Shown here: positions 3,255-30,151 of the stretch, piece after piece
Layout of the letters: each line of letters opens with the position of its first letter
Position numbering within the stretch: position 1 is the stretch's first letter
Virus record (IMG/VR): IMGVR_UViG_3300037493_003695
Span: 1 to 46,488 of that record
DNA length: 46,488 nucleotides
Reading direction: 5' to 3' (one strand)
DNA from: a virus
The notes under the pieces: generated by a model
Database searches by the model: none
Told to the model about the DNA's origin: nothing
What the model saw: only the letters and a program-made list of their open reading frames with translations
Translations under genes and position numbers: made by a program

Positions 3255-3359
3255 TACTCAGAGAAGGACTTGAACCTTCATGTCATTTTTGACTTGGGTA
3301 GGTTACCCTAGCGTCTATCCATCGGATTATCGCAATAATCTCGCTTCCGCCACCTGAGC
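3255..3359 (-). tRNA. tRNA-Leu-like gene with D-loop insertion and 3-nt anticodon loop
   Basis: Acceptor GCTCAGG pairs with TCTGAGT, the T-arm is GAAGG-TTCAAGT-CCTTC and there is a long variable arm GTCA-AAAA-TGAC, so it is class II. The GCG/CGC D-stem and GATAGAC part look like tRNA-Leu. Two features are wrong for a working tRNA. A ~21-nt hairpin (GATTAT-TGCG-ATAATC) sits in the D-loop, and the anticodon position holds a perfect GGGTA-ACC-TACCC hairpin with only three loop bases. No normal anticodon with U33 can be assigned. It lies just behind clpP. Either a decayed tRNA or a tRNA-like RNA with another job. Confidence 0.55.
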
Positions 3360-3372
3360 TAGTTTTTATTTA

Positions 3373-4095
3373 TCAGATTGACAACACACTCTTTTTGTAG
3401 TAGTCGTCAAACCCATCAAGCATTTCAGTGATTGATTTGGTTCCATCAGTTTTGATAACCTCGTCAATCAATCCAAATTCTTTTGCTTCGTCCGAATTAT
3501 ACCATCTGTCACGTGCAGAGAATTCCAATACCTCATCAATAGTTTTTCCACAATTCTCAGCCAACATCTTAAACAAGATATAGTTATACTTCTCAGCTTC
3601 CAACTGATTGATACGAGTATCTTGGATGTTACCACTTGTTCCGTGACTAACTTGGTGGGTCATAACCTTTGAATACACAAGTGACGAGCGTTTACCTTTG
3701 GTCCCTGAAGATAACAATACTGAACCCATTGATGCACACATACCAATATTTGTGGTGACAACATCTGATTTAATGTAATTCATCAAATCAACAATACCAA
3801 GACCACACAATACCGAACCACCAGGTGAGTTGATATATAAGGTAATATCTTTTTTCTCAACAGAATCCAAGAATAACATTTGAGCCTGAACAATGTCAGA
3901 CATATGTTGATTTACCACACCTGATACCCACAGGATACGTTCTCTCATCAATCTTGAGAATATATCAATTTGTGTTGCTCTCATCTCTCTTTCCTCTAAC
4001 ACATAAGGTGTTAATGAGTTCTCAAACGCATCAAGGTTCATTGATGAAATCCCTTCACTTAACGCAAACTTTCTAAATTCTTTTCCGTAATCCAT
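3373..4095 (-). CDS. clpP: ATP-dependent Clp protease proteolytic subunit
   Basis: 240 residues, slightly longer than bacterial ClpP because of an N-terminal extension of ~40 residues. Core motifs are intact: YINSPGGSV oxyanion strand, CASMGS with nucleophile Ser122, MTHQ with His147, and ARDRW with Asp196, giving a complete catalytic triad. It degrades proteins when paired with a Clp ATPase; no ClpX or ClpA is encoded here, so a host ATPase must be used. In some phages ClpP-fold proteins are head-maturation proteases, so that role is an alternative. The TGA is close to the tRNA-like gene at 3255-3359. No clear promoter motif was seen upstream. Confidence 0.93.
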   Translation of the reverse strand: MDYGKEFRKFALSEGISSMNLDAFENSLTPYVLEEREMRATQIDIFSRLMRERILWVSGVVNQHMSDIVQAQMLFLDSVEKKDITLYINSPGGSVLCGLGIVDLMNYIKSDVVTTNIGMCASMGSVLLSSGTKGKRSSLVYSKVMTHQVSHGTSGNIQDTRINQLEAEKYNYILFKMLAENCGKTIDEVLEFSARDRWYNSDEAKEFGLIDEVIKTDGTKSITEMLDGFDDYYKKSVLSI

Positions 4096-5032: not shown

Positions 5033-6601
5033 TTATCTAACCAAACTTACAAAACCTTTTTCAACATGACCAACACCTTTATCATCACGATAATATATTC
5101 TCCAACTATAAACACCTATCTCACAATAATATCCACTATTGAAGTATCCGCCAGTCCATACTTGATTTAATGATGTCAATCTACAGACAACCGCACCCCA
5201 TCTATTATAAATCTCCATTTCAGGTTCATAGATATTAAATCCTTTGATACTGAAAACATCATTTAACCCATCACCATTAGGTGTGAAAGAATTGGGAACA
5301 TAGATTCTATAACAAGAAGTTGTTTCAATATTAATTGAATAATCATCACTTAAACATCCCCTATCATCAACCCCAAATACTGAAATAGTATGAACAGTTG
5401 TTGAGTCAGGCCAAAATAAAGATATTTGATTTGAATTATCTGATTGTACGATACCGTCAACCGACCAATAATATGTTACTCCAACAGAATCCTCAACCGT
5501 ATAATAATGATTACTAAAATCAGTACATAGGTCAATCAATAAACCATCATTTGTTATTGGGAAAGGTGGAAAATATCCTCTAACGTTAACATCAATAGAA
5601 TCAGTTATCGTACAATTATATTGTGAAACAGTATATTGTGGATAGAAAACACCAGAACCAAGAGGCTCAAATAAATTACCCGTAACATAAGGTGAATCCC
5701 ACGTACCATTAGGTGGTTGAGCGTTTAATAATACAGTTTCTGATGGACATAAATAATACGAACTATCAAAAACAATCGTTGGGTCATCCAAAGTAATGTC
5801 AACACTAACAGGGTCACCAATACATCCTTGTGAATTAGTTTCAGTTACAGATAATGTATAAGTACCAACAACATCACCCCATAATACTTCAGTGAAAGGT
5901 TGACCATCAACAGTAGTTACTCCACCACCAGTTAATTCCCAATCATATGTTGAACCAAGAGTCGGTATTACAAAATAATCGTCAGATGTGGAAACACATA
6001 ACGTATCATTGGAAAATGAAATAGGTGGGGTCACAACGTTATTTCCATCAACAACACCATTAAATACCACATAAGGAGCATCAAAACAAGATTCTGTACC
6101 CCAACTACCCATAGTACCATCTGCAAATGTTGAAACTTCAATTAATAAAGATAACGGGTCACATTGGTCGGTAACAACAAGGTTAACAGAAAAAGTCCAA
6201 TCACATATAGTTCCAAAATCACCCCAGTCATTTCCTGGGTTACCATCAGTAGGTCCTTGTGGTCCCTCGTAGAAATAACCCGGACCCTCAATCATTCCTG
6301 TTGAATTTGATGTAACACTTTCAACCCAAATCCACGTCCCATTTAAAGAACAGTTACCCGGTTCAGAAACAGGTGAATAAGAAACCCAACCATTTCCTAA
6401 ATTAAGTGAAAACCCCTCAACCCAATTAGACCCAAACTGAGTTCCATTCCAACCATTCATAGTAAAAGTCATAGTAACAACAGTACCAGGAGAATAACCA
6501 CCACCAACAGGCGCCGGACTTAAAACTGCCGACTGTATTCCTACACATTGGGAAAATACAAATGATGGGACAAGTAATAATAAAAATAAAAGTTTTTTCA
6601 T
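5033..6601 (-). CDS. Secreted surface protein with type IX secretion (CHU_C, type B) C-terminal domain
   Basis: 522 residues. Residues 1-18 (MKKLLFLLLLVPSFVFSQ) are a Sec signal peptide. The middle is a series of Ig/PKD-like beta modules rich in G, T, S, D and paired Cys. The last ~90 residues carry the type B sorting signature: NSFTPNGDGLNDVFSIKGF, then MEIYNRWGAVVCR and a final VEKGFVSLVR strand. This domain sends proteins through the T9SS in Bacteroidetes and is removed on export; the host would have to supply the machinery. The centre could bind sugar or protein. A TTGACT-N17-TATAAT promoter ends 9 nt upstream. A cargo gene taken from a host is the likely origin. Could mask receptors or alter adhesion; not shown. 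Confidence 0.85.
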   Translation of the reverse strand: MKKLLFLLLLVPSFVFSQCVGIQSAVLSPAPVGGGYSPGTVVTMTFTMNGWNGTQFGSNWVEGFSLNLGNGWVSYSPVSEPGNCSLNGTWIWVESVTSNSTGMIEGPGYFYEGPQGPTDGNPGNDWGDFGTICDWTFSVNLVVTDQCDPLSLLIEVSTFADGTMGSWGTESCFDAPYVVFNGVVDGNNVVTPPISFSNDTLCVSTSDDYFVIPTLGSTYDWELTGGGVTTVDGQPFTEVLWGDVVGTYTLSVTETNSQGCIGDPVSVDITLDDPTIVFDSSYYLCPSETVLLNAQPPNGTWDSPYVTGNLFEPLGSGVFYPQYTVSQYNCTITDSIDVNVRGYFPPFPITNDGLLIDLCTDFSNHYYTVEDSVGVTYYWSVDGIVQSDNSNQISLFWPDSTTVHTISVFGVDDRGCLSDDYSINIETTSCYRIYVPNSFTPNGDGLNDVFSIKGFNIYEPEMEIYNRWGAVVCRLTSLNQVWTGGYFNSGYYCEIGVYSWRIYYRDDKGVGHVEKGFVSLVR

Positions 6602-6736: not shown

Positions 6737-6745
6737 TTATTATAT

Positions 6746-6778
6746 AAAAACACCCTTATCTATCCAACTTACAGGTGT
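6746..6778 (-). terminator. Terminator of the 7393-6745 RNA region
   Basis: ACACC/GGTGT stem with a ~20-nt loop and five T on the minus strand, placed just upstream of tRNA-Cys. Confidence 0.5.
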
Positions 6779-6958
6779 TATGGCTGTTCTCATTGCTGAG
6801 TTAGGAATAAACTGTCTTGCTCCCCTTCGTGATGGGTCTTACCGACCTTAGTAGTCAACTAGAAGGTAATATATATACAAACCTTCAACTCTTCCCTATG
6901 GTTATCACACCATTTCTCATCGTATGGGACGTACTATCTGATGATTAGTCAGAACGTG
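6779..6958 (-). ncRNA. Structured non-coding stretch between tRNA-like gene and terminator
   Basis: No open frame of useful length on either strand. Several hairpins are visible: GAAGGT/ACCTTC (6862-6867 with 6881-6886), GGTC/GACC (6835-6838 with 6844-6847) and TGGT/ACCA (6899-6902 with 6909-6912). It runs from the tRNA-like gene at 6959-7030 to the terminator at 6746-6778 and is less AT-rich than the coding DNA around it. Probably the 3' part of the RNA started from the promoter at 7422-7453. Function unknown. Confidence 0.45.
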
Positions 6959-7030
6959 TAGCCAGGACAGGATTCGAACCTATAATCTCCCTCGTTTTCC
7001 ATGGGGTGTTTCCAATTACACCACCTGACT
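6959..7030 (-). tRNA. tRNA-like gene with non-standard anticodon arm
   Basis: Acceptor AGTCAGG/CCTGGCT with A73, D-stem GTGT/ACAC, T-arm ATAGG-TTCGAAT-CCTGT, variable loop AGATT: all normal for a 72-nt class I tRNA. The anticodon arm reads CCCAT-GGAAAAC-GAGGG, with an A-A mismatch, a T-G pair and G at position 33 where U is universal. By position the anticodon would be AAA, but I would not trust this. Its 5' end is nearly the same as that of 7279-7393, so the two may be related. Confidence 0.5.
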
Positions 7031-7278
7031 ATGTTACTATCAGCTCTTCGGCATTCTACTCCCCGCAACACGGAACTGTATCTTACTTAGCCCATCGTCA
7101 GCGGTATGGGTACCGAAGTTCACTAATAGTTTGAGGATGAGAAGTCCTCTGTGTTGTAAGCATATTGTTACTTTTAACAACTTCCTTTTTTATCAATACC
7201 TCCTTTCTCAAGGGAACAACACGGTAAAAGACCTACCCTGGGACGCTGTTCTTATGGGTAGCGTAGTAGGTACTTTAG
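7031..7278 (-). ncRNA. Structured RNA with long paired domain, unknown class
   Basis: No convincing gene. A closed domain is formed by 7123-7130 with 7036-7043 (8 pairs, one G-U), continuing after a small internal loop with CTTCGG/CCGAAG (7113-7118 with 7046-7051), and enclosing CCCAT/ATGGG (7091-7095 with 7106-7110). Other hairpins: GAGGA/TCCTC (7133-7149), TTGTTA/TAACAA with a 4-nt loop (7165-7180) and CTACCC/GGGTAG (7233-7261). It is flanked on both sides by tRNA-like genes with the same acceptor sequence and is served by the promoter at 7422-7453. Confidence 0.55.
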
Positions 7279-7393
7279 TAGTCAGGGCCGGACTCGAACC
7301 GGATAAGTAACCTTACTTCTAATGGAATCTCCAAGTGTCGAGAACCACTAACTCTCAGGACTCGGGACCGTCCCTCATTACACCCACCTGACT
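7279..7393 (-). tRNA. tRNA-like gene with ~40-nt D-loop and 3-nt anticodon loop
   Basis: 115 nt. Acceptor AGTCAGG/CCTGACT with A73 and T-arm TCCGG-TTCGAGT-CCGGC are good. A GTGT/ACAC D-stem encloses about 41 nt (including GGGAC/GTCCC) instead of ~8. At the anticodon position is TGGA-GAT-TCCA, a perfect hairpin with three loop bases, followed by a variable arm AAGTAA/TTACTT. The same plan (D-loop hairpin plus 3-nt anticodon loop plus long variable arm) is seen at 3255-3359. First element after a host-type promoter. Confidence 0.5.
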
Positions 7394-8444: not shown

Positions 8445-8516
8445 TCGAAAATGTACGAATCGAACGTCTCCTGAATGCCCCAAACATCCCATGCATACCA
8501 TTACACTTCATTCTCG
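8445..8516 (-). tRNA. tRNA-Pro (TGG)
   Basis: Acceptor CGAGAAT/ATTTTCG, anticodon stem GGATG/CATTC, loop TTTGGGG (TGG), T-loop TTCGATT. The T-stem has only three good pairs and position 8 is G, so it is somewhat degenerate. Confidence 0.75.
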
Positions 8517-25707: not shown

Positions 25708-26268
25708 TTACCAATAACCTGGATATGTCTTACCACCCCAAAGGTGTCCAAATCTATTGATTCTACAAGCCCAATAACCAGCCTTTGTTCTATCTTTTTT
25801 CTTATCACATTGGTGTCTTGCTGCAAATGATTTACGTGCTTTAGGGTTAGATACCTTAGCAGTTAATCCACCATGGACATCACCAAATGAAATCTTTTTA
25901 ACATTACCTGAAGAAGGGTTTTTAACATAAACAACATATTTCTTACCCCCACCAGAGTTTCTCATTGGTCTACCCAACTGTACTTTCTTACCCTTGTATT
26001 CGGCTTCATTCAAGTCTTCCTCAATAAATGGAACATCAAGATGAACAACTTTCCCATTAGATAAGGTTGCGGTTTTTCCCATGTCTGATTTAACAATTTC
26101 AACATCATCCTCATTTAAATCAATCATCCCTTGATTATATAAATCTCTAACCTCATTAATTAATTTAAAGAAGTTTTGTGATAATGGTCTGTAAACATTT
26201 TCAGTTAATGGAATCTCATAATCCAAGTGATATTGTAATCCTTCTGAAATTATTTTATCGTTTTTCAT
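25708..26268 (-). CDS. Putative virion protein with RHxC...AGYWxCR domain
   Basis: 186 residues. N-terminus MKNDKIISEGLQYHLDYEIP and PLTEN hold ISE and LTE triplets. The C-terminal ~90 residues (KVQLGRPMRNSGGGKKYVVY, KARKSFAARHQCDKKKDRTK, AGYWACRINRF) match a short Cys-containing domain that recurs in phage and giant-virus structural or packaging-related proteins. Overlaps the PPK2 gene by 14 nt. Virion role inferred. Confidence 0.65.
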   Translation of the reverse strand: MKNDKIISEGLQYHLDYEIPLTENVYRPLSQNFFKLINEVRDLYNQGMIDLNEDDVEIVKSDMGKTATLSNGKVVHLDVPFIEEDLNEAEYKGKKVQLGRPMRNSGGGKKYVVYVKNPSSGNVKKISFGDVHGGLTAKVSNPKARKSFAARHQCDKKKDRTKAGYWACRINRFGHLWGGKTYPGYW

Positions 26269-27334
26269 CTGTTGGTGGTTTTAATACGGTTAATGCTTCA
26301 GGGAAACTTTTATCTAAAACTTCCTCATTTTTATCGTTATATGGTATATTTTGTAAAACATATCTAATTGCATTTAAACCTGAAATTCTTTTATCGTTTG
26401 AATCTACAATTACCCAAGGATGATTAACTGTTGATGTCTTATCAAATAGTTTTTCTTTAAATTCTGTGAATCTATCCCACAAATCTTGCATCTTTTCATC
26501 ATTAGGTGAATACTTCCAATATTTTAAAGGTGATTGTTGTCTCATTTCAAATCGGTTCGCCTGTGTTATCTTGTCTATTGAAAACCACAATTTAAATAGG
26601 TAATCTCCGTCTTTTACTAAACCTTGTTCAAAATCTTCAACATTATCCATAAAATCTTCATACTCCTCAGTAGAACCATAACCCATGACAGGTTCAATTA
26701 ACCCCCTATTATACCAACTTCTATCAAATAAATTAACTTTACCTGGTTGAATTTGACCTCTATATCTATCCCACCAATTTTTTCTTTCTTCAGGTGTTGG
26801 TATACCAAGAGCAATTATATTATAAAATCTTGGATTCATATTCTCAACAAATTTTTTAATTACTGAACCTTTACCTGCAGAATCTCTACCTTCAAAAACA
26901 ATAATCACAGTTTTACCTGTATTATGTAACCATTCTTGTAATTTTAATAATTCAATCTGTAAATAATAAAGTTCTTCTCTATAAACTTTTTTTGGAATGA
27001 TAGAAGGTTCTTGTGGTTCTAACTGTGGTAAATCATCTTTTTCAGGTTCCTGTAAAATAATGTTTATTTCACGTTTTTTAAGTGACTTTAGTAACTTTTT
27101 GAAGAAATCCAAAATGTTTCTATTTTTATCACCTTTCATTTTAAGGACTTTCAAAACACCTCTTTCTAATAAATTAAAATCAACAATTTGATTTTTTGAA
27201 TAATCAACAACTTGATTTAAATCTTTCTGTAGTTGAGCACTATATACATCACTATATTTTAAGATATCAATAATCCTTTTAATTTGGGATTCTGATTTTT
27301 CCTCATTTATTAAATGTTTATTTAAATTTCTCAT
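26255..27334 (-). CDS. ppk2: Polyphosphate kinase 2 family protein with N-terminal extension
   Basis: 359 residues. The PPK2 domain spans ~115-345: Walker A FEGRDSAGKGS (147-157), the second motif FDRSWYNR (203-210) and a lid region with EMRQQSPLKYWKYS. These enzymes move phosphate between polyphosphate and nucleotides, most often making NDP/NTP from polyP. Residues 1-115 are not part of the family; they begin MRNLNKHLINEEKSESQIKR (INE triplet) and are helical and charged, like the virion-associated proteins nearby. Chance to be packaged in the head and act at the start of infection is therefore real but unproven. Overlaps both neighbours. Confidence 0.88.
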   Translation of the reverse strand: MRNLNKHLINEEKSESQIKRIIDILKYSDVYSAQLQKDLNQVVDYSKNQIVDFNLLERGVLKVLKMKGDKNRNILDFFKKLLKSLKKREINIILQEPEKDDLPQLEPQEPSIIPKKVYREELYYLQIELLKLQEWLHNTGKTVIIVFEGRDSAGKGSVIKKFVENMNPRFYNIIALGIPTPEERKNWWDRYRGQIQPGKVNLFDRSWYNRGLIEPVMGYGSTEEYEDFMDNVEDFEQGLVKDGDYLFKLWFSIDKITQANRFEMRQQSPLKYWKYSPNDEKMQDLWDRFTEFKEKLFDKTSTVNHPWVIVDSNDKRISGLNAIRYVLQNIPYNDKNEEVLDKSFPEALTVLKPPTDEKR

Positions 27335-29578: not shown

Positions 29579-30151
29579 TTATCCTTCCAAGAAAGATAAT
29601 ACCATTTCTTTAACACCAAGTTGTTTGATACCCTCATTGCTCAAAGGTGTTAAGACAAAGTTGTCCAATCCCCATTCGTGTTCAAACTCCATTCCATAAC
29701 GTAGTACGGTCTTTGCCATATTCAAATCGTCAATTGCCACCCAATGTGTAACTTCGGGATGGTTTGCCAACCAATCTTGGATTTCCATACTTCTTGTTCC
29801 TTCTAAATCCCAATTTCGGTGCCATGTAACTCTTGTTAAATCAAGTACATTACCTGTAAAGTCAATTGGTCGTTTGATGATACCCTGTTTTTCGTAGTAG
29901 TCACCCATTTCTTCAACATTAACCCAACGTTTCCAATCAGAAGATACAACGATTTCAGCACCGGTCTTTTCCAAGATTTCATTTAATACCTTGATTGCCT
30001 TTTTGTCAAAGTTATCAAAACGAGCATCAACAGGCATTGACATAACATCTTGACTTAACTTCTTTCTTGCTTTTTGTTGTTTTTTAAATCGTGACCCCCA
30101 GTTACCTGATAAACAGATAACTCCATCGTGGTCTAACATTATTACGCGCAT
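29579..30151 (-). CDS. HAD superfamily phosphatase-like protein
   Basis: 190 residues. Motif I MLDHDGV (Asp7 nucleophile, Asp9), motif II IVVSSDWKRW (Ser/Asp) and AIDDLNMAKT as the acidic motif IV. The VSSDWK form is typical of the HAD group fused to RNA-repair and unknown phage proteins. Probably a phosphatase for a nucleotide or nucleic acid end. Short operon with the 47- and 59-residue genes upstream, separated by 1 nt. Confidence 0.8.
   Translation of the reverse strand: MRVIMLDHDGVICLSGNWGSRFKKQQKARKKLSQDVMSMPVDARFDNFDKKAIKVLNEILEKTGAEIVVSSDWKRWVNVEEMGDYYEKQGIIKRPIDFTGNVLDLTRVTWHRNWDLEGTRSMEIQDWLANHPEVTHWVAIDDLNMAKTVLRYGMEFEHEWGLDNFVLTPLSNEGIKQLGVKEMVLSFLEG

Follow-up and report, generated by a model that had tools for sequence, protein, structure and literature searches.

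A conserved tRNA-Leu-like phage RNA with a closed anticodon arm

Do phages put tRNA bodies to uses other than decoding? The common explanations for phage tRNAs are codon usage and the replacement of cleaved host tRNAs, and a tRNA-Leu mimic that combines charging identity with a sealed anticodon is hard to fit to either account. A concrete handle on this question comes from a 46.5-kb virus record (the window, 46,488 nt in full), in which a preliminary description had reported a tRNA-Leu-like gene with a hairpin in the D-loop and a 3-nt anticodon loop.

The gene was confirmed at positions 3255–3359 on the minus strand of the window (RNA position i is window position 3360 − i). It specifies a class II tRNA-Leu-like RNA of 105 nt, which reads 5′ to 3′ GCTCAGG TG GCG GAAGCGA [GATTAT TGCG ATAATC] CGATGGATAGA CGC TAGGGTAACCTACCCAA GTCAAAAATGAC AT GAAGG TTCAAGT CCTTC TCTGAGT A, with all of its parts on the minus strand. 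As first described, the acceptor, T- and variable arms are intact. The acceptor strands GCTCAGG (3353–3359) and TCTGAGT (3256–3262) form seven of seven pairs, two of them G·U, and A73 lies at 3255. The D-stem has 3 bp, its 5′ strand GCG (3348–3350) pairing with 3311–3313, and is followed by A14 (3346) and A15 (3345) of the leucine identity set. Between A15 and the elbow nucleotides G18 and G19 (3319–3320) stands the extra D-loop hairpin GATTAT-TGCG-ATAATC (3325–3340), in which six of six pairs form. The anticodon arm, TA-GGGTA-ACC-TACCC-AA (17 nt, 3294–3310), is zipped up to a triloop, ACC, at 3301–3303. The class II variable arm GTCA-AAAA-TGAC (3282–3293, 4 bp) has the loop AAAA in place of the GAAA of most relatives, and T48 (3280), the partner of A15, precedes the T-arm GAAGG-TTCAAGT-CCTTC (3263–3279, 5 bp). 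Just past the 3′ end the DNA encodes one C in place of CCA, which also holds for most of the phage's tRNA genes, so that CCA would need completion by a CCA-adding enzyme.

Acceptor, D-, T- and variable arms thus make up a cloverleaf. ARAGORN gave no call for this RNA among its 12 tRNAs in the window, and the Rfam tRNA model RF00005 scored it at 23.5 bits, below the gathering cut-off of 29. The tmRNA model (RF00023) had no match in it, nor did ARAGORN call a tmRNA there. Like this RNA, tmRNA joins a tRNA acceptor/T-arm body to a replaced anticodon region, but it is of the alanine type with a coding tag and pseudoknots.

Relatives were sourced from loci around the ClpP-like gene, from DNA pattern scans over IMG/VR and from a model search, and the last two pattern scans gained no further contig. 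The zipped RNA was found in 25 viral contigs (the window and 24 others) on three acceptor/T-stem scaffolds. Scaffold A, with the acceptor RCTCAGG/TCTGAGT, comprises the window, L102–L104, L117, L143, L144, L149, L150, L157, L158, L352 and L353; scaffold B, with ATAAGAG/CTCTTRT, comprises L110, L121, L148, L153, L336, L340 and L342; and scaffold D, with AGTCAGG, comprises L337, L339, L341, L343 and L344. With model R1, family members scored 74–123 bits, compared to at most about 51 bits for ordinary tRNA-Leu. The described huge phages LR745206, LR756502/3/4/8 and Lak-A2 gave hits at the ordinary tRNA-Leu level only, and an origin of the zipped RNA in these phages was rejected on that ground. 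No zipped arm with other stem bases at positions 29–31 but a TAACCTA loop was found by pattern scan.

The D-loop hairpin, perfect in the window, is imperfect in several relatives and absent from the five scaffold D contigs, whose RNAs nonetheless share the zipped anticodon arm. The hairpin is therefore an optional rather than a defining feature, less constant than the zipped arm. A similar hairpin, GTAGTT-GTAC-AGCTGC between GCGA and CGATGG, was seen in an AGTCGGG tRNA-like element of two other contigs (L296 2982–3087, L299 4406–4511), where the anticodon arm is different and the 3′ acceptor strand is unpaired.

The preliminary description had held that a neutral pseudogene would not keep both extra hairpins, and had proposed covariance in homologues as a check. 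Across 16 distinct sequences (alignment A2), 96.8% of the cells of the stated structure were standard pairs, a count that overstates independent events since many rows are close relatives, and 15 pairs showed two-sided changes. These fell in five of the seven acceptor pairs, three of the four variable-arm pairs and three of the five T-arm pairs, while the D-stem was invariant. The covariation score was 0.499, compared to 0.210 ± 0.017 in shuffles (0 of 500 as high), and it fell to 0.115 or less when partners were slid by 1–3 columns. In the D-loop insert, three of the six pairs changed on both sides (U-A/C-G, C-G/U-A and U-A/A-U exchanges), and in 13 homologous inserts 66 of the 75 possible pairs form, against 32 ± 4 in shuffled sequences (maximum 46 in 5000). 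Instead of uncompensated stem changes, or random changes in the insert and the anticodon hairpin, both hairpins were thus kept by compensatory changes, and the claim stands. A neutral tRNA-Leu pseudogene, or a set of chance hairpins, would agree with the missing ARAGORN call, the sub-threshold Rfam score and the mismatches in several inserts, but it is highly improbable given the 15 two-sided pairs, the excess of insert pairs and the occurrence in 25 contigs on three scaffolds. The window RNA belongs to a family of phage RNAs whose structure is under selection.

The elbow changed in a coupled manner as well. In L336, L340 and L342 (scaffold B) and in L352 and L353 (scaffold A), the D-loop GATGG became GATAG together with a T-loop change from TTCAAG to TGCAAG, that is, G18 to A with U55 to G, the positions of the tRNA elbow pair. 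The recurrence of this coupled change on two scaffolds suggests that the L-shaped fold is important; the change could also have passed from one scaffold to the other by recombination. A mobile hairpin element was rejected as the source of the D-loop insert, which occupies one and the same site in both scaffold A and scaffold B, has drifted in a compensatory manner and so was inherited rather than scattered. A tRNA-Pro(UGG)-like sequence missed by ARAGORN (8445–8516, minus strand) has two T-stem mismatches, which are kept in L016 (96% identical); it was considered as an internal example of neutral decay and dropped, as the mismatches recur.

If the RNA is under selection, does it decode? In the zipped arm, positions 32–33 pair with 37–38, giving 5 bp and a triloop. 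The combinations at 32–33/37–38 in homologues were TA/TA, AA/TT, TG/TG and TA/TG: at pair 32-38, L337 and L339 have A-U and scaffold B has U·G in place of U-A, and pair 33-37 changed from A-U to G·U. This covariation means that the loop nucleotides are paired and only the triloop remains. An open 7-nt anticodon loop with U33 and a leucine anticodon (NAA or NAG) is not present: U33 is missing in the family, a U stands at position 37, and none of the central triplets (ACC, ATC, ATT, TCA, GCA) fits a leucine codon. In L149 and L352, the arm is only 16 nt long. Relatives also carry ordinary tRNA-Leu(UAA) and/or tRNA-Leu(UAG), and no ordinary tRNA-Leu was among the ARAGORN calls in the window fragment. 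Members with a 17-nt arm do retain a formal 7-nt loop, and ARAGORN labels one of them (L343) as tRNA-Gly(acc), so that the family may carry wrong labels in databases. A genuine but unusual decoding tRNA is nevertheless hardly credible, given the missing U33, the U at 37, the covariation across the loop, the triplet that varies among relatives, the two 16-nt arms and a body of the leucine type. Decoding as Gly(ACC) was rejected on the missing U33, the changing triplets and the 16-nt arms. A group I intron within a tRNA was rejected as well (no Rfam match, and the RNA is too short), as was restoration of a tRNA-Leu by intron removal, since the anticodon is still closed without the D-loop insert. 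The zipped RNA so appears to be neither a pseudogene nor a decoder. It shares with canonical bacterial tRNA-Leu (RF00005, class II) U8, A14, A15-U48, G18G19, A73, the 3-bp D-stem, the class II variable arm, the T-arm and a place in phage tRNA operons, but differs in the anticodon paired shut, the lack of U33 and a leucine anticodon, the 16-nt D-loop insert and the score under the Rfam cut-off. Failing what defines a decoding tRNA, it belongs with the pseudo-tRNAs and tRNA-like RNAs.

The leucine identity elements, in contrast to the decoding elements, were kept. U8, A14, A15, U48 and A73 occur in all 13 family members tallied, and A15 and U48 in 72 of 73 ordinary phage tRNA-Leu genes. Escherichia coli LeuRS needs A73, A15-U48 and G18G19, whereas the anticodon and variable arm are dispensable; it charges tRNA-Leu without an anticodon arm, which matters for editing (PMC9976931). 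Judged by sequence only, the window RNA holds the full set of a LeuRS substrate (A73, A15-U48, A14, U8, G18G19) under these E. coli rules, from which those of a Bacteroidota host may differ. With this set kept and the decoding features missing, the zipped RNA thus seems to have kept the elements that LeuRS reads and lost those that the ribosome reads. The G18/U55 change might weaken leucylation in two sublineages. The earlier interpretation is supported in part, and its suggestion of a tRNA-like structure with a new function holds in spirit, as a possibly charged RNA with a role outside decoding.

The zipped RNA is most likely a processed, possibly leucylated, translation-silent mimic of tRNA-Leu. 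It would likely be cut out of a polycistronic transcript by RNase P and RNase Z, with CCA likely supplied by a CCA-adding enzyme; its 3′ end has the same grammar as the phage's tRNAs, a point for tRNA-type processing. The processed RNA could then likely be leucylated yet not read codons on the ribosome. A more doubtful step is a role in trans, in which the RNA would be a bait or competitor for host factors able to recognise a tRNA body; by analogy, the most plausible of these are defence nucleases that target tRNAs, or else LeuRS. Its head would then be the zipped arm, resistant to cleavage or specific in sequence, with the D-loop hairpin as an accessory on the elbow's outer face. The bait is our first guess for two reasons: phage tRNAs that counter tRNA-cleaving defences are known (PMC13096335), and a wider tribe of such RNAs, described below, has many and varied members. 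It is equally possible that anticodon nucleases would bind a closed loop less tightly, which would speak against a bait. As a whole, a selected, sealed-anticodon RNA that is tRNA-processed, leucylatable and non-decoding and acts as bait or competitor in trans is the best explanation we can offer from sequence and analogy, with somewhat less than an even chance of being right.

The GGG/CCC core of the zipped arm is nearly invariant, while acceptor and T stems differ fully between scaffolds. Because it hardly varies, the core points to a sequence-specific use. It also favours a different reading, in which the tRNA body is a stable carrier processed by RNase P and RNase Z, charging is irrelevant and the zipped hairpin TAGGG...CCCGA is active, in the manner of a small regulatory RNA whose binding partner is a protein or a second RNA. 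Many AGTCAGG-scaffold RNAs of related phages hold unrelated interiors on the same body, as a carrier might, but A14, A15-U48 and A73 in every member are stricter than carrying requires. We regard this possibility as rather unlikely in itself, nearly as likely as the bait or competitor.

The genomic context bears on two further readings. The RNA starts 13 nt past the stop codon of a ClpP-like protease gene (3373–4095, minus strand; PF00574, 2.8e-54) that lies upstream, and for this reason probably shares a transcript with it. In all seven scaffold B contigs, the RNA lies downstream of tRNA-Leu(UAA) inside a tRNA operon, directly after a spacer of a few nucleotides in six of them; L121 has a 99-nt tRNA-like element in between. 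These positions, behind the clpP-like gene in the window and beside tRNA genes elsewhere, would suit a processing signal, a tRNA-like fold that serves only as punctuation, drawing RNase P and RNase Z to a polycistronic mRNA for trimming. Such a role is improbable, since it leaves the conserved zipped arm and the D-loop hairpin unexplained and ordinary tRNA genes would suffice. The RNA could also donate leucine to a non-ribosomal reaction, comparable to the peptidoglycan tRNA-Gly of Staphylococcus, with the closed anticodon barring it from translation. Leucine identity without decoding is the expected look of such a tRNA, but no Fem-, MprF- or leucyl-transferase-like gene was found among the 40 window ORFs scanned with Pfam and there is no other pointer to such a pathway, making a leucine donor unlikely too. 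Two proteins of the window are possible tRNA-related partners, a phage-borne class II aminoacyl-tRNA-synthetase-like protein (PF00152; 33043–33894, plus strand) and an RNA-repair-type HAD protein, HAD_SAK_2 (29579–30151, minus strand).

Nothing matching the zipped family, or phage tRNA-like RNAs with D-loop inserts, was found in the literature searched, which spans few subscription journals and preprints. The nearest published tRNA-like RNA outside translation is tRNA-Other of Bacillus cereus, for which a role beyond decoding has likewise been proposed. That chromosomal RNA lies within a longer RNA under Fur regulation, retains a Trp anticodon and is a poor substrate for aminoacylation (PMC3399842), whereas the window RNA is encoded by a phage, has its anticodon sealed and carries the leucine identity set. 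The tRNA-Tyr of T5 and T6, which counter the tRNA-targeting defences retron-Eco7 and Septu (PMC13096335), are also phage RNAs with the shape of a class II tRNA, including its long variable arm, and likewise map within or close to a tRNA array. They are working tRNAs that replace cleaved tRNAs or resist cleavage, whereas the window RNA, likened to them from sequence alone, cannot decode. The ornate phage RNAs GOLLD and ROOL are structured RNAs of unknown function in tRNA arrays, and GOLLD linkers sometimes hold tRNAs (PMC12286853), but both are far larger and have no tRNA-Leu body; their models had no match in the window or in nine related loci.

Relaxed tRNA finding and pattern scans recovered 170 unique AGTCAGG tRNA-Leu-scaffold RNAs of 80–200 nt (elements of at least 80 nt were counted) in 135 loci, which can overlap or share a contig. 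The body of this wider tribe is tRNA-Leu-like, AGTCAGGTGGCGGAA..GG.AGACGC ... ACAGGTTCGAATCCTGTCCTGACTA, and its anticodon/variable region or D-loop is replaced by other sequence. A14 was present in 90%, A15 in 95%, U48 in 80% and A73 in 85%. The 3′ signature matched 18 times in G001 (208 kb) and 11 times each in G008 and G009, and the tribe RNAs lie scattered among ordinary tRNA genes of the same strand. Some types recur across phages with compensatory changes (CATACAAC/GTTGTATG in L116 versus CATATAAT/GTTATATG in L245). The folding of tribe interiors is only a little better than that of shuffled controls (mean z −0.66, n = 92), which does not prove the structure of each. Annotated phages searched with two tribe representatives gave no full-length match.

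In several AGTCAGG-type RNAs of 166–198 nt, a second acceptor/T-arm minihelix, CCCCGT...GGTTMGAATCC...ACGGGG, is nested in the D-loop (L012/L324 at 5953–6150, L006, L259, L315, L364); it is conserved in five phages, and the other interior differs. The window itself has siblings on the minus strand. A 115-nt AGTCAGG-scaffold tRNA-like RNA at 7279–7393, with D-loop inserts GGGACGGTCCC and GAGAGTTAGTGGTTCTC and a short anticodon loop, has orthologues in at least six relatives (L002, L004, L006, L008, L016, L018). An AGTCAGG-scaffold element at 6959–7030, called tRNA-Phe(AAA) by ARAGORN, has an irregular anticodon arm and is probably a mislabelled sibling. The tRNA-Leu body might then be a general chassis, and each genome might encode as many as a dozen or more RNAs that can be leucylated but do not decode, as fast-evolving effectors or baits against host tRNA handling and defence, a reading we hold as tentative and below an even chance. 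Its domains would be the zipped hairpin, the D-loop hairpin, possible pseudoknots and the nested acceptor/T-arm minihelix, and the window RNA would be one conserved member. The tribe would mean that a whole class of phage RNAs is unannotated, as tRNA finders miss or mislabel them, for example as tRNA-Gly(ACC) or tRNA-Phe(AAA).

Other tRNA-scaffold RNAs were seen alongside the tribe. Those of L121 (99 nt) and L177/L327 (103 nt) share ...CTGATGACCGCAGG and have apparent crossing helices (CTATG/CATAG versus CTTGG/CCAAG, and a second pair), where an H-type pseudoknot possibly replaces the anticodon arm. L343, L181, L212 and L277 hold a separate recurring type, TGTCAGG-type tRNA-like RNAs of 156–168 nt with a conserved interior TATGGGTTGACCACAAAGCCGGC and a D-loop insert. 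Between the tRNA-like elements of the window, two structured-looking non-coding stretches without an Rfam match (7035–7277 and 6737–6957, minus strand) were observed, one of which contains AAGATACAGTTCC, reminiscent of group I introns.

The DnaK/Hsp70-like and ClpP-like proteins of the window are closest to those of huge metagenomic phages, namely LR745206 (634 kb, 66–68% identity) and LR756502 and LR756503 (735 kb). In a host search, the exact pattern was found in 0 of 296 genomes from the phylum of a Flavobacterium MAG. A window protein (5033–6601, minus strand) ends in a CHU_C type IX secretion domain (Pfam), and of eight bacterial contigs carrying the 3′ signature of the sibling family, five were assigned to Bacteroidota, with the reservation that MAG contigs can be misbinned. 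On these two grounds, the host is probably a Bacteroidota bacterium. The phage genome also encodes a polyphosphate kinase 2 (26255–27334, minus strand).
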